NCBI RefSeq assembly: GCF_020037015.1
Contig: NZ_JAIQDE010000008.1
Coordinates: 62,001 to 126,000, forward strand
DNA length: 64,000 nt
Direction: 5' to 3'
Origin: Corallococcus sp. AS-1-6
GTDB taxonomy: Bacteria; Myxococcota; Myxococcia; Myxococcales; Myxococcaceae
Numbering within the stretch: position 1 is the stretch's first letter; every line of letters begins with the position of its first letter. The notes beneath the pieces are model-generated. The model was not told where the DNA came from, made no database searches, and saw only the letters and a list, made by a program, of their open reading frames with translations. Made by a program: the position numbers and the translations under genes. This document shows positions 35,515-55,673 of the stretch, one piece after another.

Positions 35515-37653
35515 CTACCGGCCGGAGGAGATGCGCGCCACCGGCTGGATGTTCAGGTCCGGGGACAGCTCCTGGTAGCTGAGGATGGAGAACGAGGGGT
35601 TGAACTCGTACTCCAGCAGCTTGCGCACGTAGCGGCGGATGTCCATCGCCGTGAGGATGACGGGGCGCTGGGCGCTGGGCGGCAGGTGGCCGCACTCCGA
35701 GCGCACCGCGCCGACGATCTCCTGGGCGATCTCCGGCTCCAGCGCCAGGTGCGCGCCCGCGGAGGTGCGCTTGATGGAGCTGCGGATGGCCTCCTCGATG
35801 TTCGGGTCGAGCAGGTACACCACCAGCGTGCCGGTGCCGCGCGCGTACTTGTGGGAGATGTAGCGGCGCAGCGAGGCGCGGACATGCTCGGTGAGCATGA
35901 CGTTGTCGGCCTCCACCTGGCCGTACTCGGACAGGGCCTGGAGGATGCCGCGCAGGTCGCGGATGGAGATCTCCTCCTCCACCAGGCGCCCGAGGATGTC
36001 CGTCAGCTTCAGCACGTTGACGATCTTCGGGACGACCTCCTTGACGATGGCCGGGAAGGCCTTCTCCAACTGCTCCAGCATCGTCTGCGTCTCCTGCACG
36101 CCCACGAACTCGCGCGCGTTCTTCCGGAGCACGGCGGCGGTGTGCAGGATGATGTAGCCGGGCACATCCCAGGTGGTGAGGCCCGCGGACTCGAGCGTCT
36201 CCCGGAACTGCTCGGGCACCCACGCGGCCGGCTGACGCGTCGCGGGGTTGATGGCCTCGAAGCCGGGGATGTTCATCAGCTTGAGGCGCTCCACCGTGTC
36301 GTTCACCAGGATGTGGCCCAGGGTGGCCTGGCCGGTGACGACGGGCACCTCGTTGATTTGAATCTGGTAGGCCCCGGGCGGCAGGCCGCCGTTGCCGCGC
36401 GCGCGCACGCCGGGGAAGCGCACGCCCAGCTCCACGAAGAGGCCGTCGCGCATGAACGGGATGAGCTCGAAGAGGAACTTGCCGCCGTCCTGCCGCGAGT
36501 CCACGAAGGGCACCAGCGCGTCGGAGACCTCCAGCACGATGGGCGTGACGACGGGGATGAACAGCTCCGAGTCCGGGTTGAGCTGCTCCTTGGGCGGGGG
36601 CTCGGCGGACACGGGCGTGCCGAAGCTGGACTCCATCGCGGGGCCGGCCTCCTCGGCGGCCAGCGCCTCGTCGCGCTTGCGCATCATCGTCCAGGCGCCG
36701 AAGCCCGCGCCCGCGCCCAGCAGGAAGAAGGGAATCTTGGGCAGACCGGGGATGAGGCCCAGGCCCACGAGCATGGCCGCCGCGATGGCGATGGCCTTCG
36801 GGAAGGCGGTGAGCTGGCTGCCCACGTCCTTGCCCAGGTGCGCGCCCTCCTCCTCGCCGCCCACGCGCGTCACCAGGATGCCGGCGCAGGTGGAGATGAG
36901 GATGGCGGGGATCATGCCGACCAGACCGTCACCGATGGTGAGCAGCGTGTACTTCTGCGCGGCGTCACCGGCGGCCATGCCCTTCTGGGTGACGCCGATG
37001 ATCAGGCCGCCCACGATGTTGATGACCGTGATGATGATGGACGCGATGGCGTCGCCCTTCACGAACTTCATCGCGCCGTCCATGGCGCCGAAGAGCTGGC
37101 TCTCACGCTCCAGGTCGCGGCGCTTCTTCTTCATCTGGTCCTGATCAATCACGCCGGCGCGCAGGTCCGCGTCGATGGACATCTGCTTGCCGGGCATGGC
37201 GTCCAGAGTGAAGCGCGCGGCCACTTCCGCGACGCGCTCCGAGCCCTTGGAGATGACGATGAAGTTCACCACCACCAGGATGAGGAAGAGGATGGCGCCG
37301 ACGACGAAGTTGCCCTGCACCACGAAGTTACCGAACGCCACCACCACTTCGCCCGGGTCGCCGGTGAGCAGGATGAGTCGCGTGGTGGAGATGGTCAGCG
37401 ACAGGCGGAACATCGTCGTGATCAGCAGGATCGTCGGGAACGACGACAGGTACAGCGCGCTGGGCACGTAGAGGGAGATGAGGAGCAGTACCACCGAGAT
37501 GCTGATGTTCAGCGTCAGCAACACGTCCAGGATGATCGTCGGCAGCGGGACGATCATCATCGCGACGATGGCCACGACGACCACCGCCAGGACGATGTCG
37601 GAGTACTTGTTCAGGAAGCTGTTCGGATCGGCGTTGGCCATCGGCGGGGCCAT
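35515..37653 (-). CDS. sctV: T3SS export gate protein SctV (FlhA/FHIPEP family)
   Basis: 712 residues, the usual length. The first 330 residues have about eight membrane helices. The FHIPEP signature is present: VVNFIVISKGSERVAEVAAR followed by FTLDAMPGKQMSIDADLRAG. The C-terminal half is the cytoplasmic domain that forms the nonameric export gate ring and docks chaperone-substrate complexes. It is the last gene of the minus-strand T3SS locus and separated from the core operon by chaperone and small-protein genes, so it probably has its own transcript start. Confidence 0.95.
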   Translation of the reverse strand: MAPPMANADPNSFLNKYSDIVLAVVVVAIVAMMIVPLPTIILDVLLTLNISISVVLLLISLYVPSALYLSSFPTILLITTMFRLSLTISTTRLILLTGDPGEVVVAFGNFVVQGNFVVGAILFLILVVVNFIVISKGSERVAEVAARFTLDAMPGKQMSIDADLRAGVIDQDQMKKKRRDLERESQLFGAMDGAMKFVKGDAIASIIITVINIVGGLIIGVTQKGMAAGDAAQKYTLLTIGDGLVGMIPAILISTCAGILVTRVGGEEEGAHLGKDVGSQLTAFPKAIAIAAAMLVGLGLIPGLPKIPFFLLGAGAGFGAWTMMRKRDEALAAEEAGPAMESSFGTPVSAEPPPKEQLNPDSELFIPVVTPIVLEVSDALVPFVDSRQDGGKFLFELIPFMRDGLFVELGVRFPGVRARGNGGLPPGAYQIQINEVPVVTGQATLGHILVNDTVERLKLMNIPGFEAINPATRQPAAWVPEQFRETLESAGLTTWDVPGYIILHTAAVLRKNAREFVGVQETQTMLEQLEKAFPAIVKEVVPKIVNVLKLTDILGRLVEEEISIRDLRGILQALSEYGQVEADNVMLTEHVRASLRRYISHKYARGTGTLVVYLLDPNIEEAIRSSIKRTSAGAHLALEPEIAQEIVGAVRSECGHLPPSAQRPVILTAMDIRRYVRKLLEYEFNPSFSILSYQELSPDLNIQPVARISSGR

Positions 37654-37727: not shown

Positions 37728-38195
37728 CTACGAGCGGTCCTCGGGGGCTTCGGATTCCGAAGCCTCGTCCGAGCTCTCCAGGGCCGCGGCGGCGAGCATG
37801 CGCGCACGACGGCTCAAGGGGTCCTTGTCCTCGGGATCCAGCGACACGGCATGCTGGAAGTCACGGGCCGCTTCCGCCGTGCGGCCCTGGCGGAGGAAGG
37901 CCTCGCCCCGGTTGACGAAGGGGGTGATGTCGGTGGGATCCAGCTCGATGGCGCGGTTGAAGCACGCCACGGCGGTGTCCAGGTCCTCCAGCGCCAGGTG
38001 GCAGGCGCCCAGCGCGGTCTGGAAGTAGGCCTCGCTCGAGTCCATGGCCGAGAGCTTCTCGAAGATGGCCAGCGACTCGTTGAAGTTCCCGTCCTGGAAG
38101 AGGTTGAAACCCTCCGTGGCCCGCTCGAGCATCTCCGGTCCGGACAGGGGCTTCTCGTTGTCGTTCGACACCGTGGCCTTGAATTCAGTCGTCAT
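37728..38195 (-). CDS. TPR chaperone of the SycD/LcrH type
   Basis: 155 residues from ATG at 38195; a GTG at 38207 is an alternative. It has three TPR units (GFNLFQDGNFNESLAIFEKL; AYFQTALGACHLALEDLDTA; PFVNRGEAFLRQGRTAEAAR), the layout of class II T3SS chaperones that hold translocators or needle-tip proteins. The C-terminal tail is acidic. It lies directly upstream of sctV. With the genes at 40356 and 55204 it makes three TPR chaperone-like genes in the locus. Its cargo is unknown; the neighbouring 166-residue protein is a candidate. Confidence 0.7.
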   Translation of the reverse strand: MTTEFKATVSNDNEKPLSGPEMLERATEGFNLFQDGNFNESLAIFEKLSAMDSSEAYFQTALGACHLALEDLDTAVACFNRAIELDPTDITPFVNRGEAFLRQGRTAEAARDFQHAVSLDPEDKDPLSRRARMLAAAALESSDEASESEAPEDRS

Positions 38196-38293
38196 CGGCG
38201 CGTTCACCGGGGCGGGGACAGCAGCGGCGGGGAGTCTAGCCCGGGGCCCCCGCCAGTTCCAGACGGGGTCCCCTTGTCGGCGTGAGCCGGACC

Positions 38294-38794
38294 TCAGCCC
38301 TGCTCGTCGATCCGCTCCTGGACCTTCGCCATCACGTCGCTCAGCGACTTCTCGATGACGCTCTTGAAGATGTACTCGGCGCTGGTCTCCTTGTTGAAGG
38401 CCTTCTTCGCCTCCGCGTTGATCTGCTCGGGAGTGGCGTCCGGGTTCTTCGCGATGAAGTCCGCGACCGACTTCTGCGCCTTGTCCAGCGCGCGCGTGCC
38501 GGCCTTCTCACCCAGGCTGCCCAGGTAGTCACCGAACTGGCCGGCGACGTCCTGGATGGCCTGCTCGGCGGAGGGCTTGTCGGCCTGGGCCGACTTCTGG
38601 CTCTGGCCCGCGGCGGCCGTCTGCGGGGCGCTCTTCGCCTGGAGCGTCTGGAGGCCCTTGGCGAGCTGATCCGTCGTGGCGCGGAGCAGGTTCTCCTGCT
38701 TCACGACAGCCTGCGAGCCGGTCGCCGGCCTGGCAGTGGAGGTGGTCGCGATGCCGACGCGGGGAGCAGAACCGTTAATCGGGGAGGAGCCCAT
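38294..38794 (-). CDS. T3SS-associated protein, possible secreted substrate
   Basis: 166 residues. The first 85 residues are Ser/Thr/Ala/Gln-rich and probably disordered, as in many T3SS substrates with an uncleaved N-terminal signal. The rest is helical (FGDYLGSLGEKAGTRALDK; FKSVIEKSLSDVMAKVQERI). I do not recognise a family. Its promoter-like motif (38831-38859) matches those of the needle-like genes, which suggests co-regulated expression as an exported component. Confidence 0.6.
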   Translation of the reverse strand: MGSSPINGSAPRVGIATTSTARPATGSQAVVKQENLLRATTDQLAKGLQTLQAKSAPQTAAAGQSQKSAQADKPSAEQAIQDVAGQFGDYLGSLGEKAGTRALDKAQKSVADFIAKNPDATPEQINAEAKKAFNKETSAEYIFKSVIEKSLSDVMAKVQERIDEQG

Positions 38795-38907: not shown

Positions 38908-38951
38908 CCGGCCCCGGACCGATGCCCTGGAGGGCACCAGCACGGGGCCGG
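38908..38951 (-). terminator. Terminator hairpin of the broken needle-like copy
   Basis: CCGGCCCCG (38908-38916) pairs with CGGGGCCGG (38943-38951), enclosing an inner imperfect stem (GATGCCC/GGGCACC). It is the duplicate of 39241-39284. Confidence 0.6.
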
Positions 38952-38976: not shown

Positions 38977-39089
38977 CTACTTCAGGTTGTTCACGGCGGC
39001 CATCGCCATGTCGTCCATCTTCTTCATGAGGTTCCGGTGGTGCTCTTCGCGGTGTTAACAGCCTTGTTGAAGACGTCGATCGTGGCCAT
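38977..39089 (-). pseudogene. Truncated duplicate of the needle-like gene
   Basis: The first 18 codons are identical to the gene at 39309-39527. A 106-bp deletion then shifts the frame, giving a stop after 21 residues (ending STTGTS). The last part of the intact gene (KKMDDMAMAAVNNLK) is still present in the DNA but out of frame. Promoter motif, ribosome binding site and terminator are retained, so a short RNA may still be made. Confidence 0.85.
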
Positions 39090-39143
39090 GAGAGTTCTCC
39101 TGGTACGGCGGGATGGGTTCGTGCGGCACCAGCTACAAAAGGA

Positions 39144-39171
39144 TTATCGCTGAGGGCGAACCGGAGTTTCC
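39144..39171 (-). promoter_or_regulatory. Sigma-28-like promoter motif, broken copy
   Basis: GGAAAC (39171-39166), 16 bases, CGATAA (39149-39144) on the minus strand, 54 bases before the ATG at 39089. Confidence 0.5.
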
Positions 39172-39240: not shown

Positions 39241-39284
39241 CCGGCCCCGGACCGATGCCCTGGAGGGCATCAGCACGGGGCCGG
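39241..39284 (-). terminator. Terminator hairpin of the needle-like gene
   Basis: CCGGCCCCG (39241-39249) pairs with CGGGGCCGG (39276-39284). A second stem, GATGCCC/GGGCATC (39254-39260, 39265-39271), forms inside. It lies 24 bases after the stop codon, so this small gene is its own transcription unit. Confidence 0.65.
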
Positions 39285-39308: not shown

Positions 39309-39527
39309 CTACTTCAGGTTGTTCACGGCGGCCATCGCCATGTCGTCCATCTTCTTCATGAGGTTCGTGATGGTGCTCATGATCTGCGACTCGAGCTGCA
39401 CCTGCTTCTGCGCCTGGAGGAAGCCCTTCTGCTCCTCGGGGGCCGCGGCGATCATCTTGTCCATCGCCGTGCCGGTGGTGCTCTTCGCGGTGTTAACAGC
39501 CTTGTTGAAGACGTCGATCGTGGCCAT
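39309..39527 (-). CDS. sctF: Needle-like (SctF-type) small helical protein
   Basis: 72 residues and no Cys, Trp, Tyr or signal peptide. It is predicted as helix-turn-helix: residues 1-28, a Pro turn (AAAPEEQ, 27-33), then a long helix to the end. From DKM (23) to the last residue is 50 positions. The same span in the Salmonella needle protein PrgI, from DKL to its end, is 49, and both finish in an Ala/Ile-x-x-Asn-hydrophobic-Lys/Arg pattern (AAVNNLK here, AAIIQNFR in PrgI). A good AGGAG site precedes the ATG. It has its own promoter and terminator, as expected for a highly expressed filament subunit. The needle role is inferred; a secreted regulator is the alternative. Confidence 0.6.
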   Translation of the reverse strand: MATIDVFNKAVNTAKSTTGTAMDKMIAAAPEEQKGFLQAQKQVQLESQIMSTITNLMKKMDDMAMAAVNNLK

Positions 39528-39581
39528 GAGAGTTCTCCTGGTACGGCGAGATGGGTTCGTGCGGCACCAGCTACAAAAGGA

Positions 39582-39609
39582 TTATCGCTGAGGGGGGACC
39601 GGAGTTTCC
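39582..39609 (-). promoter_or_regulatory. Sigma-28-like promoter motif, needle-like gene
   Basis: GGAAAC (39609-39604), 16 bases, CGATAA (39587-39582) on the minus strand, 54 bases before the ATG at 39527. Confidence 0.6.
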
Positions 39610-39665: not shown

Positions 39666-40262
39666 TCAGCCCTTCAGCTTGCCCAGGGCGGGGTTCTTCA
39701 TCCACGCCTTGAAGGAGTCGAGCTGCTGCTGCGACTCGGCGCGGGGGTCCACCGGCTTGGCGGCGCCGGGCAGGGAGTCCTCGCGGGTCAGCGCGATCTT
39801 CGGGCGGCTCGAGCTCTCGAAGCCATCCGACGTCTTGAGCCCGCCCGCCGGGCCGCGAGCAGGCGCCGCGGGAGCGGCCGCGGCGGCCGGGGGCGTCACG
39901 GCGAACTTGGCGCCCAGCTCCGGGTTCATCTCCATCACGGCGCTCTGGATGGTCATGCCGTAGGTGCTGATGCGGTACTGCAGGTACTCCACCACGCTCC
40001 CCAGGATGGCCGGGGGCGGCAGGATGGGGTCCTTCATGAAGCGGTTCAGCGAATCCGTGACGTCCTTGTACATCCCCTCATCCAGCGGCGTGCCGGGAGC
40101 CGACGCGGCCACCAGCTTGCGCATGTTGCGCACCACCTGGAGGAACGTGCCCTGGGCCGTCTTGCCCTGGACATCCAGCTCCGCCAGCAGCTTGTCGCGC
40201 TTCTCCTTCAGCTCCGGCGGCTCCGGGGGCAGCGGAAGCTGTGTCTTGGGGGGGGTGCTCAT
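39666..40262 (-). CDS. T3SS-associated protein of unknown function
   Basis: 198 residues from the ATG at 40262, which has GGAG 6 bases upstream; an ATG at 40274 is an alternative. The first 110 residues are helical (LKEKRDKLLAELDVQGKTAQ; AILGSVVEYLQYRISTYGM). An Ala/Pro-rich linker and a polar tail with PRAESQQQLDSFKAWMKNP follow. No family is recognised. It lies between the chaperone gene at 40356 and the needle-like gene and could be a chaperone client or export regulator. Confidence 0.55.
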   Translation of the reverse strand: MSTPPKTQLPLPPEPPELKEKRDKLLAELDVQGKTAQGTFLQVVRNMRKLVAASAPGTPLDEGMYKDVTDSLNRFMKDPILPPPAILGSVVEYLQYRISTYGMTIQSAVMEMNPELGAKFAVTPPAAAAAPAAPARGPAGGLKTSDGFESSSRPKIALTREDSLPGAAKPVDPRAESQQQLDSFKAWMKNPALGKLKG

Positions 40263-40355
40263 GAACCGCTCCATCGGTTGAGGTGAATGAATCCAGCCTA
40301 ACAGAGATTACGGGGCTTCCATCCCACGCGCCAGGAGGCGGTCCCACCCCGTGGC

Positions 40356-40832
40356 TCAACGCCGGGTGAGGGCGGTGACCATGGCGCCGGCCTTGCGCAC
40401 CACCGGATCATCCGCCGGAGGCATGGCCGCCGCACGGCGCAGGTCCTCCAGGGCCTGGGGCTTCTGTCCCATGGCCAACTTCACCTCCGCGCGGCCCACG
40501 TAGACTGACGGGTCCTGGGGGGCCAGCTTGGCGGCCACGTCGAAGGCGGCGAGCGCGCCCTGCCCGTTCCCCGCGGCCATCTCCACCACCCCGAGCGCCT
40601 TGGCGAAGTACACGTCCGTGGGGTTGATGGCGTAGAGGCCCTGGAAGAGCGTGCGCGCCTCCGCTATCCGGCCCTGGTAGAAGAAGAAGTAGGCCGTCTT
40701 GGCGATGGCGTACAGCTCGTCGTTGGAGTAGCCGCGCACCTCGCGGAGCGTGGCCTTGCCCTCCGCCCAGCGCTGCAGGAGCGCGGTGAGCTTCGCCTCG
40801 TCCTGCGGATCTTCCGGGTCCAGCGCCGCCAT
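40356..40832 (-). CDS. sctG: Class II T3SS chaperone, SycD/LcrH/CesD family
   Basis: 158 residues. The family opening is clear: an N-terminal helix, then GYSNDELYAIAKTAYFFFYQ and GRIAEARTLFQGLYAINPTD, followed by two more TPRs (AKALGVVEMAAGNGQGALAAF; VYVGRAEVKLAMGQKPQAL). These chaperones bind translocator or needle-related proteins before export. It starts 3 bases after the stop of the gene at 40836, so they are one operon. No translocator gene is recognisable in the window, so its cargo is open. The symbol follows common practice for T3SS TPR chaperones and is tentative. Confidence 0.8.
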   Translation of the reverse strand: MAALDPEDPQDEAKLTALLQRWAEGKATLREVRGYSNDELYAIAKTAYFFFYQGRIAEARTLFQGLYAINPTDVYFAKALGVVEMAAGNGQGALAAFDVAAKLAPQDPSVYVGRAEVKLAMGQKPQALEDLRRAAAMPPADDPVVRKAGAMVTALTRR

Positions 40833-41656: not shown

Positions 41657-42739
41657 TCAGGCGCGCGCAGGCGGCGCCGCGTTCTGCTGCTGCTTGAGCC
41701 CGTAGACGAAGTTCAGCACCTCGGCGACCGCGTCGTAGAGCTCCTCCGGGACTTCCTCGCCCACCTCCACGCGCAACAGCGCGTGCGCCAGCGGGACGTT
41801 GCGCAAGAGGGGCACGTCCGCCTCGCGCGCCAGCGCCTTGATGCGCTCCGCCTTGGCGTCCATGCCCTTCACCAGCACCCGCGGCGCCCCGTCCTTGTTC
41901 TGGTCGTACTGCAGCGCCACCGCGACGTGGTCCGGGTTGGTGACGATGACGCTCGCGTCCTTCACGGCCTCCATCTGGGCCCCCTCCATGATCTCATGGT
42001 GGAGCTCCTTGCGCTTGGCCTTGTGGTGCGGGTCGCCTTCGCTCTGCTTGTACTCCTTCTTCACTTCCTCCTTCGTCATCATCATGTCCTTCATGAACGA
42101 CTTGCGCTGCCACCACACGTCGAACACGCCGAAGATGACGAAGAGCATCACGATGCGCACACAGACCCGGTAGAGGATCTCCCCCATGATGGCCATGATG
42201 CCGTGCGTGTCCTGCCGCACCGTTTCGATGACCAGGGGCATGGAGTCTCGCACCACGCCGGTGACGACGTAGGCGGCGACGGAAATCTTGATGAGGTTCT
42301 TGAGCAGCTCCACGAAGGACTTCTTCGAGAACATGTTCTTCAACCCCGCGATGGGGTTGAGCTTGTCGAACTTCGGGATGAGCGGGTCGATGGTGAAGAG
42401 CGACCCCACCTGGAGGAAGTCCATCAGCCCGCCCAGCACCGCCGCGCCCGCCACGATGGGCACCGTGAGGAGCAGCAGCGTGCGCAGGCCCATGATGAGC
42501 AACTGCGTCGTCGCCAGGGCCAGGTCATCCGAGTGGGCGATGGCGTCGAAGCTGAAGCGGAAGAGCGTGGAGATCTCCCGCTCCACGGTGTCCCAGGTCC
42601 CCTTGACGATGCCCAGGCCCGCGACGAGCACGGCCACGCCCGTCAGGTCCTTGCTCTTCCAGGTCTGACCCTTCTTGCGCGCGTCGTCGAGCTTCTTATG
42701 CGACGGTTCTTCTGTTTTGTCGCCACTCTCGTCCGACAT
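41657..42739 (-). CDS. sctU: T3SS export switch protein SctU (FlhB family)
   Basis: 360 residues. The N-terminus has the family start DKTEEPSHKKLDDARKKGQ, followed by four membrane helices. The cytoplasmic switch domain carries TNPDH at 267-271 where nearly all relatives have NPTH. The Asn and Pro needed for the self-cleavage chemistry remain, while Thr is Asp. The protein selects between early and late substrates after cleavage. The start at 42739 is chosen from the conserved N-terminus; it follows sctT by 28 bases. Confidence 0.93.
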   Translation of the reverse strand: MSDESGDKTEEPSHKKLDDARKKGQTWKSKDLTGVAVLVAGLGIVKGTWDTVEREISTLFRFSFDAIAHSDDLALATTQLLIMGLRTLLLLTVPIVAGAAVLGGLMDFLQVGSLFTIDPLIPKFDKLNPIAGLKNMFSKKSFVELLKNLIKISVAAYVVTGVVRDSMPLVIETVRQDTHGIMAIMGEILYRVCVRIVMLFVIFGVFDVWWQRKSFMKDMMMTKEEVKKEYKQSEGDPHHKAKRKELHHEIMEGAQMEAVKDASVIVTNPDHVAVALQYDQNKDGAPRVLVKGMDAKAERIKALAREADVPLLRNVPLAHALLRVEVGEEVPEELYDAVAEVLNFVYGLKQQQNAAPPARA

Positions 42740-42767
42740 GGAGGAATCCCGGGAGGCTTGAAGCGGC

Positions 42768-43586
42768 TCAGGCCAGCATCTGGATGGCGTGCTGGAACAT
42801 GCGGAGCATGTTGGCCAGCTCCTGCTGCATGCGGCCAATCACGACATGGATGGCGATGAACATGATGAGCACGCCCACCAGCGGCTTGAGCGACATGGAG
42901 ATGAAGAACACCTGGATCTGCGGCGCGACGCGGTTGATGGCGCCCAGGGCCAGGTCGGTGACGAACGCGGCCACCATGCCGGGACCCGCCAGCGCCAGGC
43001 TGATCTTCAGCAGGTCCGCGAAGGAGCGGATCATCAGGTCGAAGAAGGGCCACACGCCGCGGCTGAAGCGCGGGAAGCCCTCCAGCGGCACGATGGCGAG
43101 GCTGTCCGCGAGCGCCCGGATGATGATGTGGTGCCCGTCCAGCGACAGGAACAGCACCACGCACAACTGCACCTTGAGGCTGGAGAAGAGCGACACCTGC
43201 GTGCCCAACTGCGGCACGTAGAGCTGGGCGTTGTTGCTGCCCGACATGGTGTCCATCAGCGTGCCGGCCACGCGGGCCGCGTCGAACACCATGTTGACGA
43301 TGTACGACAGCGCCACGCCGATGAAGACCTCCTTGAGCAGAAGGCCGATGTACGGGAGCGCGCTCAGGGGGATCCGGTCCATCCGGTCCGCGACGGACGG
43401 GAAGAGCACCGCGGACACCAGCAGGCCCAGGCCCAGCTTCATCTCCGAGGGGACGACCTCGCCGCCCAGGAACGGGCTGAAGATGAGGATGGGCATCACG
43501 CGGCACATGATGAGTGCCATCGTGAAGATGACGACCGACAGGTTGACCCGAGCACCCAGCTCGGCCATGGCTTCGCCGATGTTCAT
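42768..43586 (-). CDS. sctT: T3SS export apparatus protein SctT (FliR family)
   Basis: 272 residues with about six hydrophobic helices. Family features include RVMPILIFSPFLGGEVVPSE near the start, YIGLLLKEVFIGVALSYIVN and LFLSLDGHHIIIRALADS. It forms the export gate core with SctR and SctS in the inner membrane. The ATG at 43586 overlaps the stop of sctS by 4 bases (ATGA), so translation is coupled. Confidence 0.92.
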   Translation of the reverse strand: MNIGEAMAELGARVNLSVVIFTMALIMCRVMPILIFSPFLGGEVVPSEMKLGLGLLVSAVLFPSVADRMDRIPLSALPYIGLLLKEVFIGVALSYIVNMVFDAARVAGTLMDTMSGSNNAQLYVPQLGTQVSLFSSLKVQLCVVLFLSLDGHHIIIRALADSLAIVPLEGFPRFSRGVWPFFDLMIRSFADLLKISLALAGPGMVAAFVTDLALGAINRVAPQIQVFFISMSLKPLVGVLIMFIAIHVVIGRMQQELANMLRMFQHAIQMLA

Positions 43587-43849
43587 CTGCCGATGAGCGC
43601 CGGGAACCGGTCGAAGACGTGGAAGGTGAAGCGCAGGAGCTGACCGCCAATCCACGGGCCCGTCATGGCCAGCACGCCGAAGACGAGCACGACCTTGGGC
43701 GCGAAGGAGAGCGTCTGCTCTTGAATCTGCGTGGTGGCCTGGAACAGCGAGACGAGGAAGCCCACCAGGAGGCTCATGAGCACCGGCGGCGCGGAGACCA
43801 CGAGCACCAGGAACAGCGCCTCCTGGGTGATGAACGTGAGCTGATTCAT
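43583..43849 (-). CDS. sctS: T3SS export apparatus protein SctS (FliQ family)
   Basis: 88 residues with two membrane helices (LVLVVSAPPVLMSLLVGFLV and PKVVLVFGVLAMTGPWIGGQ) and the family pattern QATTQIQEQTLSFAPK between them. Four copies pack around the SctR/SctT export channel. It lies 16 bases after sctR. Confidence 0.93.
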   Translation of the reverse strand: MNQLTFITQEALFLVLVVSAPPVLMSLLVGFLVSLFQATTQIQEQTLSFAPKVVLVFGVLAMTGPWIGGQLLRFTFHVFDRFPALIGR

Positions 43850-43865
43850 GGAAGTACGGGGCTCC

Positions 43866-44690
43866 TTACAGGTAGCCGATGACCAGGCCCTTGGCGATGA
43901 GGTACCAGCCGTCCACGAGCACGAACAGGAGCAGCTTGAAGGGCATGGAGATGGTCGTGGGCGACAGCATGTGCATGCCCAGCGCCAGCAGGATGTTGGC
44001 GACCACCATGTCGATGACGATGAAGGGCACGAACAGGAGGAAGCCGATCTGGAAGGCCTCCTTCAGCTCGGACACGACGAAGGCCGGGACGATGACCATG
44101 AAGTCGTTCGGGCCAATGTCCTTGCGGTCCTCCTCCTTCCGCATCTTCTTCGCCAGGCTGTAGAAGAGCGTGCGGTCCTTGTTGGTGACCTTCTTCATCA
44201 GGAACTCGCGCAGGGGCTCCTTGGACTTGTCCGCGGCCCCCAGCATCGTGCCCACCGTCTCCGAGGAGAAGACGGACGTGCCCCGGGACCAGATGTCGAT
44301 GCCGCCCGCCCGGTACATCTCCTGGCCCACGGGGGCCATGATGTAGACGGTGAGGATGATGGCCAGGCCGGTGATGACCTGGGTGGGGGGAATCTGCTGG
44401 GTGCCCAGCGCCGAGCGGACGATGGAGAGCACCACGGAGATCTTCACGAAGCTGGTCACCATCATCAGCGCGAACGGGACCAGGGACATGGCCGCGAGCG
44501 CGAGGATGAGGATGAGCGGACGGGAGGTGAAGGAGTCGGAGCTCACCGCCTCCTTGACCATCTCATCCGGCATCGAGTCGCCGCCCTTCTTCGCCGCGGA
44601 CGCGACGAAGGGGGAGAGCGACACGAGGGCCGCGAAGAGCCAGGGCGGAGCGCGGAACAGCAGCGGGCGAGCGGGAGACGAACGGTTCAC
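43866..44690 (-). CDS. sctR: T3SS export apparatus protein SctR (FliP family)
   Basis: 274 residues from a GTG at 44690. A cleavable signal-like N-terminus (LFAALVSLSPFVASAA), known from FliP and unusual in injectisome SctR proteins, precedes the FliP core: FVKISVVLSIVRSALGTQQI, then a long exported loop, and three more helices ending in VDGWYLIAKGLVIGYL. It builds the helical export pore. The start lies 10 bases after the stop of the FliO-like gene, matching the fliO-fliP order. Confidence 0.93.
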   Translation of the reverse strand: MNRSSPARPLLFRAPPWLFAALVSLSPFVASAAKKGGDSMPDEMVKEAVSSDSFTSRPLILILALAAMSLVPFALMMVTSFVKISVVLSIVRSALGTQQIPPTQVITGLAIILTVYIMAPVGQEMYRAGGIDIWSRGTSVFSSETVGTMLGAADKSKEPLREFLMKKVTNKDRTLFYSLAKKMRKEEDRKDIGPNDFMVIVPAFVVSELKEAFQIGFLLFVPFIVIDMVVANILLALGMHMLSPTTISMPFKLLLFVLVDGWYLIAKGLVIGYL

Positions 44691-44700
44691 GTGACGGCCT

Positions 44701-45348
44701 TCAGACGCCCGGCGGCGGCGTGGTGCCACCGGTCCGGCGGGAGAGGAGCTTCTGGAGGAAAGGACTCAGGGACACCGGCGACGACGGCGGACGCGCGGCG
44801 CGGATGCGCTCCACGGCGTCGCGGTCCAGCTTCGAAACCAGTTGCACGCCACCCTCGCCGCCACCCACCAGCAGGTACTCGTCCGCGGCCTTCAGGACGA
44901 AGAGCGTGCGCCGTTGATCCAACGGGATGCGCTCCATCACCGACACAACCGACGCCTTGCCCACGGGCACGCCCTGCAACCCCATCAGCCGGCGCAGCCC
45001 CACGTTGAGCGTGAGGTAGATGGCCGCGAGCACCGCGCCCAGCAGCGCCACCGTGCGCACCACCACCCAGGCCAGGCTCTCCTGCGCCTCCGCGCCTTCG
45101 GCCTCGGGGACGCCCAGCTCGCGGTCCAGCTCGTCCGCGTGGCGCTTCGCGCGGGCCGCGGCTTCACCCTCGACGGCCGGGGCGGGGGCCGCCAGGGGAG
45201 TCTGGACGGAGGCCGCCTCCGGGGCCGGCGCCGCCACGGAGGCGTCGGGCGAAGAGGCCGCGGGCGCCTGCGCCAGGACGGCGGGCGACGCGAAGAAGAG
45301 CGCGGCGCCGAGCAACAGGCGCGAGGGGAAGAGACCGAGGACCGCCAT
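44701..45348 (-). CDS. FliO-like membrane protein
   Basis: 215 residues. An N-terminal signal-like helix (about 8-25) is followed by an Ala/Pro-rich exported stretch. One membrane helix (about 93-115, WVVVRTVALLGAVLAAIYLT) leads to a cytoplasmic FliO domain (VGKASVVSVMERIPLDQRRT and LFVLKAADEYLLVGGGEGG). FliO helps assemble FliP in flagella and is not a standard injectisome part. It sits between sctQ and sctR, exactly where fliO sits in flagellar operons. Confidence 0.8.
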   Translation of the reverse strand: MAVLGLFPSRLLLGAALFFASPAVLAQAPAASSPDASVAAPAPEAASVQTPLAAPAPAVEGEAAARAKRHADELDRELGVPEAEGAEAQESLAWVVVRTVALLGAVLAAIYLTLNVGLRRLMGLQGVPVGKASVVSVMERIPLDQRRTLFVLKAADEYLLVGGGEGGVQLVSKLDRDAVERIRAARPPSSPVSLSPFLQKLLSRRTGGTTPPPGV

Positions 45349-45450
45349 GGATGGGCGCGAGCCTAGTGCACCCGAGTCAGGACCGCCACGGGCCCGGGCA
45401 CAAGCACGCCCCCCTGCCCGCCTGCCTTGTGACGCACGGGCGCAAACGCT

Positions 45451-46815
45451 TCAGCTCAGGTGGATGATGCGCACCCCGAGCTGGCCCTCCAGCTCCACGA
45501 GCTCACCCCGGGCCACCACCTTGCCGTTCACCGACAGGTCCACGGGCTCACCCGCCCCGCGGCGCAGGTCGATGACCTGGCCCGTGCGCAGGCCCACCAC
45601 CTGTTCGGCCGTGATGGGCACGCGCGCCAGCTCCACCGCCACCTGCAGGGGCAGGTCGCTGAGCAGATCGCTTCCGTCCTTGTCGTCCAATGCCGCCCCT
45701 TCGAGTTCCGGAGGAACGCCCAGCTCCGGGTTGGTGAAGTCCTCGTTCTCTTCCGAAGCGCCCCCGGGCTCCCCACCCTGGGGGTTGCCCGGCTCGCCGG
45801 GGATGATGTCCGTGATGCGCGCCCGGTAGCGGCCCTGCTCCACGAACACGTCCGCCGCGAAGTGGCCGGTGCGCCCCAGGCCCAGCCGCAACTGCGCCGT
45901 GCCGGGCTCGCCCCGGTCCGGCCGCGCCGACAGCATGTCCAGGAGCAGCACGTCCTTGATGCGCAGCGACGCCAGGTCCTGGGCGGACAGCTCCGCCACG
46001 CCAATCTCCGCGCGCAGCCAGTCGCGCAGCGCGGACAGGCGCCGGCCGTTCGCCTTCATGTCCTGGCGGCGGTGCTCGCGCCGCTGGGCGCTCTCCACCG
46101 CGGGCTCCGCCGCCTCCAGCACCGCGGACGGCACCACCAGCCGCACGATGCCTCGGTGCGAGCCCAGCACCGCGTTCAGGTGCACCGCCAGCATCGGGCC
46201 GTCCTCACCCAGGCGGGCGGAGACCTCATCCACGCCGCGCGCCACGCCGTCCAGCCGGGGCCGGGGAACGCCCGGCTGCAGTCCGGGCACCAGCTCCTTG
46301 AGGGCCTCCAGGACGACGTAGCCCATCACGCCCTCCTCGATGTCCGTCAGGGGGCGCAGGCCCACCGTCTCACCGGCGCCGCCCAGCAGCAGGTCCACCG
46401 CCGAGTGCGCCAGCGACAGCTCGATTTCGAGGATGACCCGTCCCTTGAGCGCGCCGGGGGCCAGCACGGCCAGGAAGGACGGGTCGCCCAGGAAGCGGCG
46501 CAGCTCCGTCATGGGGCGCGCCTGGGCGGACTCCACCGACAGGCGCACGTCCACGTCGAAGAGGGCCTTGAGGCGCGCGCAGACCGTCTCCAGCGTGCCC
46601 GCGTTGGGCGTCAGCCACCGCAGCCGCTCCGCCAACTGGCCCTGCGTGCGCGACACCTTCTCCAGGTTCGTGAACGCGAACGGCCGCCACGGCGACACCG
46701 GCGCCGGGGCGGGAGCCGGCGCCTGCGCGGGCTTCGAAGGCGGTCCCAGCTTCCGGGTGTCGACCAACATGGTGCGCTCGAAGACTCCGGGCTCGTCGTC
46801 CGGCTCCAGGCTCAT
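45451..46815 (-). CDS. sctQ: T3SS cytoplasmic ring protein SctQ (FliM/FliN-like)
   Basis: 454 residues. The N-terminal half is weakly FliM-like. The last 75 residues are a SpoA domain (DLPLQVAVELARVPITAEQV, then VIDLRRGAGEPVDLSVNGKV and GELVELEGQLGVRIIHL). This ring or pod platform sorts substrates below the export gate. An acidic linker separates the domains (about 345-380). The start overlaps the sctP stop as ATGA. Confidence 0.9.
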   Translation of the reverse strand: MSLEPDDEPGVFERTMLVDTRKLGPPSKPAQAPAPAPAPVSPWRPFAFTNLEKVSRTQGQLAERLRWLTPNAGTLETVCARLKALFDVDVRLSVESAQARPMTELRRFLGDPSFLAVLAPGALKGRVILEIELSLAHSAVDLLLGGAGETVGLRPLTDIEEGVMGYVVLEALKELVPGLQPGVPRPRLDGVARGVDEVSARLGEDGPMLAVHLNAVLGSHRGIVRLVVPSAVLEAAEPAVESAQRREHRRQDMKANGRRLSALRDWLRAEIGVAELSAQDLASLRIKDVLLLDMLSARPDRGEPGTAQLRLGLGRTGHFAADVFVEQGRYRARITDIIPGEPGNPQGGEPGGASEENEDFTNPELGVPPELEGAALDDKDGSDLLSDLPLQVAVELARVPITAEQVVGLRTGQVIDLRRGAGEPVDLSVNGKVVARGELVELEGQLGVRIIHLS

Positions 46816-47717
46816 GTCTTGGCCTCGAACCTCAGATTTTCAAGCGCCAGTCCCCGGCCGCCCAGGGCGCTGCGCAGGCCGTCGCTCTGCTCTTCGAGCA
46901 TCTTCAGGGTGTCGCGGTCGTTGCCGCTGAAGACGGCCGAAATCTTCCCGTTCTTCGCGCTGACCTTGATGGACAGGCCGTTGAGCACGTCGCCGCGCAG
47001 GTCGATCTGGAACTCCGCGTTGCCCGCGGCGTTGGTGCCCACGCGCACGCGCTCGACGATCTTCTGGGCGATCTCATTCGCCATGGCGCGCAGCCGCTCG
47101 GAGCCCGCGGTGTCCTTGGGCTTGGCCACCGGCACCGGCGCCATCAGCGCGGGGTTGAAGCGGAAGCCCGCGGCGGCCATCTGCCCGCCCTTGTCGTCCT
47201 TCTCCTTGCTGGCCCCGCCGCCCGCGCCCTTGCCACCTCCGGCGTTGACGTCGATCTTCAGCTCGCCCTTCTCCTGGCTCAGCCGGCTGGCCTGACCTTC
47301 GGCCTTGTTCATGTCGCCCTCGCGGACGTCCGTGGAGCGCTTCTCCTCCACGACCTCCGTCTTGCGGGCCTCGCCGCCCTTGGACAGGCTCTGCGACTCG
47401 CTGTTGCGCTGGGACTGCTGGGCGCCCTGGGTGGACTCACCGGGCTTCGCGAAGGCGGTCTCCTTCTGGGCCAGCTTCTCGTCGAAGGACTTCCCCTGCC
47501 CCTGCGCGAGCCGCGCCAGGACCTGCTTGCCCAGGGGCTGCTTGAGCTCCTGCGCCTGCTTGGGCTGGGCCTGCTCGGCCTGGCCCTGCTGGACCAGCTT
47601 GGAGAAGACGGACTCGCCCTGCAGTCGCTTCTGGGTCTTCGCCTCCGCGAGCTTGCGCTCCTGGATCATCCGCTCGGCCAAGCGCGCGGCATCGCGATCA
47701 TCATCAACTCGGCTCAT
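46812..47717 (-). CDS. sctP: SctP/FliK-like length-control protein
   Basis: 301 residues. The first 200 are Gln/Lys/Ala/Glu-rich and low in hydrophobics, as in needle- or hook-length rulers. The C-terminal 100 residues look like the FliK hook domain (EFQIDLRGDVLNGLSIKVSA, GNDRDTLKMLEEQSDGLRSA, LGGRGLALENLRFEAK). In other systems this class measures filament length and triggers the SctU switch. Its presence argues that something is assembled to a set length. Confidence 0.78.
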   Translation of the reverse strand: MSRVDDDRDAARLAERMIQERKLAEAKTQKRLQGESVFSKLVQQGQAEQAQPKQAQELKQPLGKQVLARLAQGQGKSFDEKLAQKETAFAKPGESTQGAQQSQRNSESQSLSKGGEARKTEVVEEKRSTDVREGDMNKAEGQASRLSQEKGELKIDVNAGGGKGAGGGASKEKDDKGGQMAAAGFRFNPALMAPVPVAKPKDTAGSERLRAMANEIAQKIVERVRVGTNAAGNAEFQIDLRGDVLNGLSIKVSAKNGKISAVFSGNDRDTLKMLEEQSDGLRSALGGRGLALENLRFEAKT

Positions 47718-47753
47718 GGCGTCTCTCCAGACTCGGCGGAAGGCGGCGGGAGG

Positions 47754-48242
47754 TTACTTGCGCTGGCGGGCCAGGAACAAGGCGCTGCCGATCTCCTCCT
47801 GCTGCAACTCCTCCCGATCCTGGCGCTCCTTTTTCACCTGCTTGACGAACTTCTCCTTGTTCTTCTCGATGGCCTTGAGCTCCTTGGCGGCCTCGGCCAT
47901 CAGCATGCGGCGCTGCTCCACCAGGCGGCCCGCCGTCCGGACGACCTCCTTCTGGTGTTCAATCTGGAGGGCGACCTGGGCTTCGTCGTCCTTCAGGCGC
48001 TCCTCGAAGCGGCCCATCATGTTCATGCCGTTGATGCCGGCGCCCTTGGCCATGATCTGCTGGAAGTACTCCTGGACCTTGGCCTTGCGCTCCTTGCGGC
48101 GGCGCTCCAGCTCCGCCTCCAGGCGCTGCTGTTCCAGCTCTTCCTTCGCCAGCGCCTTGACGGCGTCGGAGAAGGCCTGCTCGGCCTCGTCCTTCGCCTT
48201 CTCACGCATGTCCAGCAGGGACTGCAACCGGTACGGGGGCAT
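47754..48242 (-). CDS. sctO: T3SS stalk protein SctO (FliJ-like)
   Basis: 162 residues that are almost fully coiled coil, rich in Glu, Lys, Arg and Gln, with the FliJ-like start PPYRLQSLLDMREKAKDEAE. The length and gene order (after sctN) fit FliJ/SctO, which inserts into the ATPase ring. A Met/Gly-rich break (GAGINGMNMMG) interrupts the coil near the middle. Confidence 0.85.
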   Translation of the reverse strand: MPPYRLQSLLDMREKAKDEAEQAFSDAVKALAKEELEQQRLEAELERRRKERKAKVQEYFQQIMAKGAGINGMNMMGRFEERLKDDEAQVALQIEHQKEVVRTAGRLVEQRRMLMAEAAKELKAIEKNKEKFVKQVKKERQDREELQQEEIGSALFLARQRK

Positions 48243-48300
48243 GGTGGGGCCATCCTACCCAAAAACCGTCCGGTCCGTAGGTACGCCGGGGCGGCCCGGC

Positions 48301-49614
48301 TCACTCCGCGAACAGGTTGATGAGCTGCTCCACGGTCTCCTCGTACGGGGAGTTGGAGTGCGTGTCCTGCTTGAGGAAGTCGATGATGGAGTCGTACTTC
48401 TCGATGGCGTAATCCGTCCGGGGGTCCGCGCCGGCCTGGTAGGCGCCCAGCAGGATGAGGTCGCGCTGCTTCTCGTAGGTGGAGAGCGTCTCGCGCAGCT
48501 TGCCGGCGGCCTTCTTGTGCTCCTTGCTCACGATGCCGCTCATCACACGGCTGAGGCTCTGGAGCACGTCCATGGCGGGCCACTGGTTTCGCGCGCCCAG
48601 CTCACGGTTGAGGATGAAGTGGCCGTCGAGAATACCTCGGACCTCGTCGGCGATGGGGTCTTCCATGTCACCGCCGGCCACGAGACAGGTGTAGATGGCG
48701 GTGCACTTGCCCTTCGCCGAGTTGCCCGTGCGCTCGAGGATGCGCGGCAGCATGGAGAAGACGCTGGGCGGGTAGCCCTGACGCGCCGGGGGCTCGCCGA
48801 TGGCGAGGCCGATGTCGCGCTGGGAGCGCGCCAGACGCGTCACCGTGTCGAGCATGAACAGCACGTTGCCGCCGCGCTCCCGGAAGTACTCCGCGATGGC
48901 CGTGGCCACGTAGGCGGCGCGCAGACGCACGAGGGCGGGCTGGTCGGACGTGGCGCACACCAGCACGGCGCGCTTCATGCCCTCCTCGCCCATGGCGTCC
49001 TCGATGAACTCGCGGACCTCGCGACCACGCTCGCCGATGAGCGCCACGACGCTCAAGTCGGCTTGCGTGTTGCGGGCAATCTGGCCCATCAGCGTGGACT
49101 TGCCGACGCCGGAGCCGGCGAAGAGGCCCACGCGCTGACCCTCGCCCACGGTGAGCAGCCCGTCGATGCAGCGCACGCCCAGGGGCAGCGGCCGCTCGAT
49201 GCGCTGGCGGGTGAAGGGGTCCGGGCAGTCGCGGTCCACGGGCCAGTCGACCAGGTTATCCCCCTCCAGGGGCAGGCCGTCCATGGGCTCGCCGATGCCG
49301 TTGAGCACGCGGCCCAGGAGCCCGTCGCCGCACTTGATGGTGAGGGGACGCCCCGTGGGGATGCACTCGCTGTCCGGACCGATGCCGTACAGCTCGCCCA
49401 GGGGCATGAGCATCACCTCGTCGCCCACGAAGCCCACGACCTCCGACTTCATCAGGCCGCGCTGGCGGTTCTTGATGAGCACCAGCTCGCCGATGCGCAC
49501 GTTGGGCACGCTCGCCTTGATGACGAGCCCCGTCAGCTCCGTGACGCGGCCGCGCACCCGGACGAGGGACGCTTCCTTGATGAGGTCGTAGTAGCGCGAG
49601 AGGTCGATGGCCAT
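48301..49614 (-). CDS. sctN: T3SS ATPase SctN (FliI family)
   Basis: 437 residues, the usual length. Walker A is AGSGVGKST at 166-174, followed by LIGERGREVREFIED and NVLFMLDTVTRLARSQRDIG, where the F1-type Ser of the Walker B region is Thr. The substrate-unfolding hexamer sits below the export gate with SctL and SctO. It lies 45 bases downstream of sctL. Confidence 0.96.
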   Translation of the reverse strand: MAIDLSRYYDLIKEASLVRVRGRVTELTGLVIKASVPNVRIGELVLIKNRQRGLMKSEVVGFVGDEVMLMPLGELYGIGPDSECIPTGRPLTIKCGDGLLGRVLNGIGEPMDGLPLEGDNLVDWPVDRDCPDPFTRQRIERPLPLGVRCIDGLLTVGEGQRVGLFAGSGVGKSTLMGQIARNTQADLSVVALIGERGREVREFIEDAMGEEGMKRAVLVCATSDQPALVRLRAAYVATAIAEYFRERGGNVLFMLDTVTRLARSQRDIGLAIGEPPARQGYPPSVFSMLPRILERTGNSAKGKCTAIYTCLVAGGDMEDPIADEVRGILDGHFILNRELGARNQWPAMDVLQSLSRVMSGIVSKEHKKAAGKLRETLSTYEKQRDLILLGAYQAGADPRTDYAIEKYDSIIDFLKQDTHSNSPYEETVEQLINLFAE

Positions 49615-49659
49615 GGCGGATTCCGGGAGGGCTCGAGGGCGCGGCGTTGGCCGGGAGGC

Positions 49660-50337
49660 TCAGGGAGGGCCGCTCTTGCGACCGGTGTCCGGCTGCAGGA
49701 GGTTCTGGAGCATCTCCAGTTGGGTGGGCAGTTGCGCGTCCACGGTGCCGTACTCCGTCTGGACGATGCAGCCCACGGGAGCGACCTCCGGGTCCTCCTT
49801 GATGGCCAGGTCCACCGTGCGGCCGATGAGCTCCATCAACTGCGGGCGCTTGGCGCGCAGCACCGTGGCCGTCTTCGGGTGCACGCGCAGGACCATGGCG
49901 CGCGCGTTGCGGAGGTTTTCAATGGCCGCGGCGCACATGTCCACCAGCAGCTCCGGCTCGCGCTCCAGGTCGCGGCCGAGGATCTTCTCCGCCATCTTCA
50001 GCGCCAGCGCGATGATGTCCTGCTCCTGGGAGTTGAGCATCTCCCCGGCCTGGATCTTCGCGCGCAGGAGCAGCTCCGTGGCCTGGGCGATGCCCTCCTG
50101 ACGGCCCAGGTCCTTCGCCTTGGCGAAGAGCTCCTCCTTCTCGCGCTGGGCCTCGGCGAGGATGCGCTCACGCTCGCGGTGGGCCTCCTCGATGATGCCC
50201 TGGGCGCCCTGGCGTGCCTCGAAGACCTCGGCGTTCATCACGCCCGCGCGCGGCGGACGCAGCGCCGGTCGCTCGGACGTGGCGACGACCACCGACTCCG
50301 CCAACCCGTCCCCCTTGATTACCTTGCCGATCGCCAT
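49660..50337 (-). CDS. sctL: T3SS ATPase regulator SctL (FliH family)
   Basis: 225 residues. A long Glu/Arg/Gln-rich helix (about 45-100, EEAHRERERILAEAQREKEE) is followed by the FliH/V-ATPase subunit E-like C-domain (MAEKILGRDLEREPELLVDM and later VGCIVQTEYGTVDAQLPTQL). It links the ATPase to the SctQ platform. It is preceded by the FliG-like gene. Confidence 0.9.
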   Translation of the reverse strand: MAIGKVIKGDGLAESVVVATSERPALRPPRAGVMNAEVFEARQGAQGIIEEAHRERERILAEAQREKEELFAKAKDLGRQEGIAQATELLLRAKIQAGEMLNSQEQDIIALALKMAEKILGRDLEREPELLVDMCAAAIENLRNARAMVLRVHPKTATVLRAKRPQLMELIGRTVDLAIKEDPEVAPVGCIVQTEYGTVDAQLPTQLEMLQNLLQPDTGRKSGPP

Positions 50338-50361
50338 GGGCCACTCCTTGAAGACCGGATG

Positions 50362-52446: not shown

Positions 52447-52559
52447 CGGTCACCTCGCGGGCCCCCAGGTGGCCCGCTGAAGATAGAAGTCGTGTCCCCG
52501 GCCTGGAGGACACGTCCCGCGGACCACCCCAGGAGGGCCGCGGGAAGCGACGTGCAGCT

Positions 52560-53381
52560 CTAGCCCTCGCGACCGCCGCGCGCACGCGCGGGGCGCGCCG
52601 CCGCGGCGGGGGCGGCGCCGCCGGAGCCTCCGCGCATGAAGGTCCACGCGGTGAGGCCCATCATCGCCAGGATGAGCACGAACGCGCCGCCGAGGATCAT
52701 CTTGAAGGTGCTGGCGCTGGCGGCCGTCATGCGCACGCCGAGCACGTCCTGCAGGCGGTTGGTCTCCGTGGTCTCCGCCGTGGGGGCCATGGCCTCCGTC
52801 ATCAGCACGGTGACGGCCTCCGGCTTGAGCTCCGCCACGGAGCTGGCGACGAACTGCTTCACCGCGTCCACCGAGACGGGGGGCTTGCCGCCCTCCACCG
52901 TGCGGTACTTGATGAACACGGAGGCCGACGGCATCGGCTTGTTCTCCGGCTGCGACAGGTCGTTGTTCTCCGGCACCATCACGATGGCGCGCGCCTCCAG
53001 CACGCCGTCGATCTGGTTGAGCGCGTTGGAGACCTCGCCCGCCATGGCCTTGAGGAGCATGGCGCGCTCCTCCGTGGCGGTGGGCACCATGCTGCCCTTG
53101 GCGAAGTGGGACAGGCCCTTCTCCACCGGGCGCGGCAGCGAGTTGCGCTTCAGCAGTTCCGCGGCCTGCGCGGCGTCGCCCTTGGGGACGACGATGGTGA
53201 AGCGCACTTCGTTGCCGCCCTCCGCCTTCTCCTTCTTGGCGTTGATGCCGTTCTTGCTGAGCAGGACGTAGATTTCATTCGCGTCCGCTTCCGTCAGCTC
53301 GTGCTGCAGCTCGATGGAGCAGCCGGTGAGGAACAGCAGGGCGAGGAGCGGGGCGGCGAAGACGGGCGTTCGGCGAGTCAT
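52560..53381 (-). CDS. sctJ: T3SS inner-membrane ring lipoprotein SctJ (FliF/YscJ family)
   Basis: 273 residues from ATG 53381. The signal peptide ends in a lipobox (LLFLTGC, Cys21). The YscJ core follows: ELTEADANEIYVLLSKNGIN, LSHFAKGSMVPTATEERAM and NALNQIDGVLEARAIVMVPE. One membrane helix (about 228-250) and a short Arg-rich tail end the protein. It has the injectisome SctJ length and lipid anchor, not the longer FliF form. No SctD or secretin gene is next to it. Confidence 0.93.
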   Translation of the reverse strand: MTRRTPVFAAPLLALLFLTGCSIELQHELTEADANEIYVLLSKNGINAKKEKAEGGNEVRFTIVVPKGDAAQAAELLKRNSLPRPVEKGLSHFAKGSMVPTATEERAMLLKAMAGEVSNALNQIDGVLEARAIVMVPENNDLSQPENKPMPSASVFIKYRTVEGGKPPVSVDAVKQFVASSVAELKPEAVTVLMTEAMAPTAETTETNRLQDVLGVRMTAASASTFKMILGGAFVLILAMMGLTAWTFMRGGSGGAAPAAAARPARARGGREG

Positions 53382-53490
53382 GGGCGCGCTTAGCTTAACA
53401 GGGCCCTTGCAAAACGCGGAAGGGCGCCCCCTCCCGACGTTGGGAGGGACCGCCCTTCGCATGCCGCCCTGGCCCGGCGGGGTGGGGACT

Positions 53491-55638: not shown

Positions 55639-55673
55639 GGACGTCGCGCTTCCTTTCCTGTCGCCGGAAGCAC

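Follow-up and report, generated by a model that had tools for sequence, protein, structure and literature searches.

The 72-residue protein encoded at 39309-39527 is probably the major exported filament ('needle') subunit of a type III secretion system (T3SS) that has been described as needleless, and thereby a divergent relative of SctF; this judgement, which is drawn from sequence comparison, covers the whole of the mechanism set out below. As a new finding, the gene proves to be a unit in a tandem array, and it lies inside a T3SS cluster in the window, i.e. the whole stretch of 64,000 nucleotides that was analysed. Since a tandem and exchangeable array of needle-like genes is found beside T3SS core genes, most of the copies with a flagellar-type promoter of their own, the 'needleless' label given in print needs to be tested anew. 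The tandem array, its broken copy, the promoter, the sigma factor and the exchange of alleles all go beyond the first-pass annotation of this DNA, which had pointed to a needle-like subunit at this site.

That annotation had also stated that the myxobacterial T3SS has been described as lacking needle parts, and the pertinent passages of PMC3459982, PMC12075869, PMC10433427 and PMC10849154 say so. The needle is absent from the system according to statements in PMC12075869, PMC10849154 and PMC10433427, and sections of PMC12075869 and PMC10433427 report that the Myxococcus T3SS* is required for prey lysis in M. xanthus and describe it as being without needle, secretin and translocon. Abby and Rocha (2012; PMC3459982), in the part that deals with these systems, present the Myxo systems as lacking the secretin and SctF, hold that SctF 'should have been found' if present, place the myxobacterial branch at the first split among the non-flagellar T3SSs, deduce that this branch has lost an ancestral SctF, and consider it possible that an ancestor without a secretin had a needle in the periplasm. 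No paper that names a needle in a myxobacterial T3SS was found in the open-access literature, where PMC3459982 was the only one to mention SctF together with myxococci.

The gene and its product

The open reading frame at 39309-39527 is real and conserved. It consists of 72 codons and a stop, its product is MATIDVFNKAVNTAKSTTGTAMDKMIAAAPEEQKGFLQAQKQVQLESQIMSTITNLMKKMDDMAMAAVNNLK, and a GGAG stands 7 bases ahead of the ATG. The protein differs from that of its nearest relative (G006) in one residue at a dN/dS of 0.08, and judged from such comparison the gene is under selection. With 72 aa the protein has the needle size that had been claimed for it, inside the SctF range of 70-85 aa, and the claimed helix-Pro turn-helix layout is seen in the AlphaFold2 model (5 sequences; pLDDT 83.8, pTM 0.54), which is a two-helix hairpin with helices at residues 2-28 and 31-71 and a break at A29-P30. 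The PrgI-like C-terminus can be recognised at the level of the family, as the consensus of 35 members, '...SNiMKklhdtakaiIqNiR', aligns through the last PrgI residue, '...SNTVKVFKDIDAAIIQNFR'.

In a structure comparison to the PDB, the predicted hairpin reached Z 7.2 with 2mme (rmsd 5.0, 71 aligned), 7.0 with 6rwy_L (rmsd 4.9, 70 aligned) and 6.6 with 6ofg (rmsd 4.8, 71 aligned), MxiH/PrgI spanning Z 6.6-7.2, and as unrelated hairpins reach up to 7.5, this likeness is just compatible with a needle. Foldseek returned nothing at E <= 0.001 for the model, with MxiH on rank 4 (E 2.0). Helical hairpins score alike in both comparisons, and structural similarity was therefore dropped as proof of a needle.

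The profile search against SctF families that had been proposed earlier gave a divided result, in that family profiles reach the needles but the single sequence is weak. PF09392 matches the 72-aa protein alone with 13.5 bits (E 0.085) at a curated cut-off of 29.4 and is equalled by the unrelated PF05524 (E 0.072), and an NCBIfam search with the protein alone gave no match. Being below the curated cut-off, the protein is not a formal member of the SctF family, and the claim made here is one of family kinship and likeness of function.

Kinship of the family with SctF

By profile comparison, the family of the 72-aa protein is a distant relative of the T3SS needle subunits (SctF). A profile of 16 short forms, run against 177,635 distinct PDB sequences, had five matches at E <= 10, of which one was significant, namely 7y6c chain F (E 8.6e-5). 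This chain of 43 aa carries the label 'co-chaperone' in the PDB, and its sequence is that of the needle EsaG, as can be concluded from its own match to PF09392 (E 2.5e-16) together with the composition EscE-EsaG33-73-EsaH that is stated for 7Y6C in the mBio paper PMC9426511.

A profile of 35 members, short and long forms together, had 15 matches in the PDB, and the best 11 were all needles: EsaG with E 5.4e-7, PrgI with 0.0033 to 0.035, and MxiH with 0.0086 to 0.11; a PrgI-SipD fusion scored E 4.7e-4, a second stretch adding to the match. The reversed control of this profile gave three matches in the PDB, with a best E of 0.16 and no needle among them. The set goes back to 93 domains, reduced to 41 at 70% identity, of which 35 were used, some of them N-terminally trimmed, and six left out. 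In the other direction, PF09392 matched 17 of the 35 members at E <= 0.05 (best 2e-8) and none of the same 35 sequences reversed; at E <= 0.1 it appeared in 18 members (best 25 of 29 families), and no PF09392 was among the matches listed for the reversed members (best 25 of 27 families). TIGR02105, the SctF family of NCBIfam, matched 11 of the 35 at E <= 0.1 (best 2.5e-7). The 72-aa protein is not one of the 17, and PF09392 at E <= 1 picks up only six of the 16 short forms (best 0.011), so that the single-sequence signal is owed in large part to the long forms. A chance hairpin was ruled out, as family profiles and reversed controls separate the needles from the background.

The 35 members matched 17 Pfam families at E <= 0.05 and 15 NCBIfam families at E <= 0.1, and no SctI family was among them; identity with SctI thus finds no profile support in these scans. 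One member each matched EspA (E 0.03) and SseB (E 0.01) weakly, and the HrpA pilin family PF09589 gave a weak match to one member (E 0.041) that is not significant.

Among 195 genomes of the phylum, PF09392 was found at E <= 0.001 in 13 and over its cut-off in two, and it was found at E <= 0.001 in none of 14 control genomes. The two genomes over the cut-off hold long forms, at G036:C67:1195-1389 with 33.5 bits, adjoining the marker o40836, and at G122:C133, where two copies, both with 33.0 bits, lie between sycD and sctV; in both genomes, the long forms occupy the same gene position as 39309-39527.

The type III secretion cluster

The T3SS setting that had been assumed is indeed present, as the gene lies between the chaperone/SctU end of the cluster and sctV (Table 1), and so are SctI-like and SctP/FliK-like genes, both below their cut-offs. 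The relevant passage of PMC10433427 has SctI in the Myxococcus cluster as well. No secretin (PF00263) was detected in the 64-kb window, and of the three matches elsewhere in the genome the nearest is about 19 kb to the left.

Table 1. Features of the needle-like array and of the surrounding cluster, in positions of the window
Feature	Position	Strand	Remarks
SctV export gate	35515..37653	minus	TIGR01399 over cut-off
Second LcrH-like TPR protein	37728..38207	minus	between array and sctV; below cut-off
166-aa fast-evolving protein, no family	38294..38794	minus	downstream of array; candidate exported substrate
Promoter-like element, GAAACTTC-N12-GCCGATAA	38829..38858	minus	before the 166-aa gene
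Hairpin of the same kind as at 39241	38908..38951	minus	downstream of broken copy; 81% complementary
Broken array copy	38977..39089	minus	106 bases lost internally, with a shift of frame; both ends and the promoter element remain
Promoter-like element of broken copy	39142..39171	minus	same two parts as in intact copy
G+C-rich hairpin	39241..39284	minus	downstream of intact copy; 21-nt arms, 86% complementary, 2-nt loop
SctF-related needle-like gene, 72 aa	39309..39527	minus	sole intact array copy of the genome
Sigma-28-architecture promoter-like element of intact copy	39580..39609	minus	GGAAACTCC-N11-AGCGATAATC
202-aa fast-evolving protein, no family	39666..40274	minus	upstream of array; candidate exported substrate
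SycD/LcrH-type TPR chaperone	40356..40832	minus	TIGR02552 110.2 bits, cut-off 104.8
SctU	41657..42838	minus	TIGR01404 over cut-off
SctT, SctS, SctR	42768..44729	minus	profile matches
FliO-like, SctQ, SctP/FliK-like, SctO (YscO-like), SctN, SctL, SctJ	44701..53462	minus	profile matches
SctP/FliK-like	46812-47717	minus	PF02120 29.5 bits, cut-off 29.8
Gene without family assignment	50362-52446	minus	within the 44701..53462 stretch
SctI-like inner rod protein	53491..54072	minus	NF038054 (NCBIfam SctI) E 0.0063, below cut-off
FliA/WhiG-like sigma factor	53933..54772	minus	TIGR02479 E 1.2e-32, 113.4 bits, below cut-off 189.6
Third LcrH-like TPR protein	55204..55707	minus	adjoins long-form needle-like gene; below cut-off
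Long-form needle-like protein, 187 aa	55734..56297	minus	PF09392 E 0.0026 (protein), 0.004 (genome scan), below cut-off
Weak copy of the array promoter type (GCAACC...CCGATAATC)	56368..56396	minus	before long-form gene

Some further genes of the region deserve mention. Next to sctV on the opposite strand, 34369-35424 (+) encodes an FHA-domain protein that matches SctD weakly (TIGR02500, E 1.3e-8, below cut-off) and is perhaps the SctD ring protein. A 93-aa protein encoded directly downstream of sctU, at 41365-41646 (-), repeats the C-terminal domain of FlhB/SctU as a gene of its own; it is found also in many of the relatives examined and resembles the stand-alone FlhX-type proteins. An EAL-domain protein resembling c-di-GMP phosphodiesterases is encoded beside the cluster at 60644-61732 (-), and likewise in G026.

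Of 34 genomes with a strong o40836 match, the source genome included, 32 have a family member next to the cluster; the locus profile behind this count had been built iteratively from the very loci it scored, so that its E-values flatter the members, and its weakest match (E 0.22) was not counted. The two exceptions are G015, whose copies are found on a small contig of their own, and G020, without a profile match at the place, where a 139-aa ORF looks family-like by eye only. Among the 195 genomes, tabulated by hand with cut-offs of E <= 1e-4 for the family and E <= 1e-100 for SctV/FlhA-type genes (at which flagellar FlhA is also counted, as in the controls), both were found in 147, the family alone in 11, SctV alone in 12 and neither in 25, which means a SctV/FlhA-type gene in 147 of 158 family-bearing genomes versus 12 of 37 without a family match (odds ratio 28, p 2e-14, uncorrected for kinship). 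Homologues in genomes without a T3SS, which had been named beforehand as speaking against a needle, are thus rare, but some exist: SctV is absent at E <= 1e-5 in nine of the 11 family-only genomes, among them G069 and G191, which are at least 90% complete. Needle-like C-terminal domains also occur away from recognised T3SS core genes, at six loci (L051, L052, L127, L128, L129, L131) in frames of 86 to 621 codons, and these proteins may be effectors or remote subunits.

The neighbourhood of the array has a bearing on another reading, by which the product would be exported by the T3SS without polymerising, as a translocator, a tip protein or a small effector with a needle-like helical export domain, its copy number and allele swapping reflecting an arms race with the prey. 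The very fast evolution and the allele exchange beside strongly conserved neighbours would fit such a substrate, the flanking genes o39666 and o38294 are fast-evolving too, and the cluster encodes LcrH/SycD chaperones, which normally serve translocators. Within the genus, the identities are 32-95% for the 39666-40274 product, 37-84% for that of 38294-38794 where it is found, and 92-100% for o40836, and the first two are candidate tip or translocator proteins. The best profile matches of the family are needle subunits, however, and the copies within one genome are kept identical and not diversified, so that a non-polymerising substrate appears unlikely.

A second needle-like gene

Counting against the needle role of the array product is a second needle-like gene at 55734-56297, which competes for the same role. 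Its product has a Gly/Ser-rich N-terminus and a needle-like C-terminus, and it might be the true needle, with the array encoding an accessory or inner-rod-like subunit. This long form gives the best PF09392 match of the genome, it lies near sctI-sctJ, and related long forms directly precede sctI-sctJ in a second T3SS type, in the source genome as well as in others; it is also unamplified in two related loci (L044 and L047) whose copies are 45-50% identical to that of the window. In the source genome, this second and different T3SS is found at L082 (G000 contig C11, 488000-506000), in the order needle-like 194-codon frame, sctI, sctJ, sctQ and sctR-S-T-U-V. The Gly/Ser-rich N-terminus and the length of 187 aa are unusual for SctF, however, and it is the array that is amplified and that has the stronger promoter element, which is what one would expect for a major subunit. 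The long variants in other genera, with Gly/Ser or hydrophobic N-termini, themselves fill the place of the array there, with four copies in G022. That the long form is the true needle of this cluster is hence quite improbable, and the array product remains the favoured major subunit.

The tandem array and the exchange of alleles

In the source genome the array consists of one intact and one broken copy, and many relatives have two to seven copies, with seven in G102 and six in G103, genomes that are assembled in one and two contigs, respectively. Copy numbers from short-read assemblies have to be read as lower bounds, because the array or its edge coincides with the end of several contigs. Each copy in the source genome is followed by a strong hairpin, a possible transcription end; a factor-independent terminator was considered and given up, as the terminator scanner does not recognise the hairpins.

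Within each of 23 multi-copy genomes, the coding parts are 0.94-1.00 identical (least similar pair) and thereby more alike than the flanks, the 150 bp upstream having mean identities of 0.59-0.87, with 0.40 in G008, where a contig end cuts one copy. Between genomes, other allele types have 19-32% identity to the 72-aa protein, and dN/dS ranges from 0.05 to 0.81 in 14 pairs. The contrast with the neighbours is seen in G010: its SctV shares 99.7% identity with the SctV of the window, whereas its needle type is 32% identical over 90% of the protein and its array lies in inverted orientation. In trees with seven genomes of one allele type for the upstream flank and six for sctV, not one of 200 bootstrap trees (0%) united the genomes of this type in one group, whichever flank was used, and the well-supported branches require a minimum of two allele-type changes for the upstream flank and of three for sctV. 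As far as such trees tell, the allele types of the array do not follow the neighbouring genes. This looks like an exchange of whole cassettes between genomes combined with gene conversion within the array; alternatively, an ancestor had both types and the pattern arose through later loss.

The exchange leads to a wider idea, in which the T3SSs of predation build a swappable filament with a sigma-28-type switch and a homogenised needle array, cassettes of differing type and orientation being exchanged between strains, and a variable subunit facing prey, kin or phage. The needle would then be a strain-specific part of the contact-killing machine and would possibly pass through the Kil/Tad secretin. 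We offer this as a tentative and rather doubtful extension.

The promoter element and the sigma factor

Upstream of the array copies, GGAAACTCC and CGATAATC are common across genera. In 30 array loci (470 kb), GAAACT and ATAATC, with spacings of 8-26 allowed, occur together at 87 sites with spacings of 17 (66 sites) or 18 (21 sites) only; 79 of these lie upstream of an array gene, no more than 420 bases from its needle domain, four stand before the ATG of long forms in G022, and four are elsewhere. These loci had been chosen because arrays are present in them; L070 and L072-L080, which come from distant genera and have a single long-form copy, are not part of the set. The element is thus associated with the array genes: 79 out of 94 have it within 420 bp upstream, and the 15 without an exact element at this distance include four long forms that have it just before the ATG.

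In the source genome of 9.5 Mb, GAAACTN15SGATAA has three exact sites, two at the array copies and one at C76:86446, and with one mismatch allowed there are 16 further sites versus three in the backward control. On these counts a regulon beyond the T3SS was discarded. The next-best promoter scores in the window are far lower, at 56368 (long-form gene) and 38829 (o38294). A sigma-70 promoter scan found none at the array, and an ordinary sigma-70 promoter was rejected for it on this ground.

The consensus layout of FliA (sigma-28) is given in PMC2859248, in the section concerned, as 8-mer-n11(12)-8-mer with TAAAGTTT-n11-GCCGATAA. The -10 part and the spacing of the array element fit this consensus, and the -35 part is GAAACTCC instead of TAAAGTTT. 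As the cluster also contains a FliA/WhiG-like sigma factor gene, the simplest reading, by analogy with flagellin, would be a regulon of late export substrates.

The promoter and the sigma gene, together with the small size and helical fold of the protein, could also be taken to indicate an exported regulator, such as an anti-sigma factor of the FlgM kind directed at the sigma factor of the cluster. No FlgM was among the Pfam and NCBIfam families matched by the 35 members at the thresholds given above, the profile signal is directed to SctF, and many identical copies would be unexpected for a regulator, all of which makes it very improbable that the array encodes one.

Proposed mechanism and its meaning

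Taking the array product as the major filament subunit, the export apparatus of the inner membrane would be assembled first, and the FliA/WhiG-like sigma factor of the cluster would then turn on the array, as FliA does with flagellin. One of the TPR (LcrH/SycD-like) chaperones would probably bind the small two-helix subunit, which would be exported via SctRSTUV and may then polymerise, probably on SctI, into a short filament. This filament could be periplasmic, or it could pass through an outer-membrane channel that is borrowed from elsewhere, e.g. the Kil/Tad secretin, and a role in prey lysis can be expected. The tandem copies would provide the dose, and gene conversion would keep them identical, such that the filament is a homopolymer.

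If there is a needle-type subunit in the myxobacterial branch, the loss of SctF that has been inferred for it is removed and an SctF-type filament is placed in the secretin-less ancestor. It would also tie the control of a non-flagellar T3SS to the sigma-28 logic of flagella, and it would give research on predation a concrete gene to target.

Comparison with known systems

By its described gene content, the 'needleless' T3SS* of Myxococcus (MXAN_2434-2464) would be the same type of cluster, in a comparison by description only. A canonical injectisome has a dedicated secretin in its cluster, whereas the cluster of the window has none. The HrpA pilin of plant-pathogen T3SSs (PF09589) is likewise a fast-evolving T3SS filament subunit, with a weak match to one member of the family, but it is single-copy and passes a secretin. 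Flagellin is the late and major exported filament subunit of its system, and the likeness to flagellin and FliA lies in the FliA/WhiG-like sigma factor that is encoded with the machine and in the 8-mer-n11-8-mer layout with its GCCGATAA-like -10; unlike there, the -35 of the array differs, the subunit is SctF-like and not flagellin, and the link between sigma factor and promoter is a predicted one. The closest likeness in kind is to SctF itself (PF09392, TIGR02105; EsaG, PrgI, MxiH, YscF), with a length of about 70-80 aa, a pair of helices joined by a turn that contains Pro, a C-terminal helix that ends in I-x-N-(I/L/F)-(R/K) in most members, and a gene in a T3SS cluster with SctI, SctJ, SctP and TPR proteins. 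Unlike SctF, the family of the window has very low identity to the known needles, the window protein staying below the curated cut-offs, and it is encoded as a tandem multi-copy array with one promoter element per copy in most cases, has long variants in other genera, and belongs to a cluster without a secretin.
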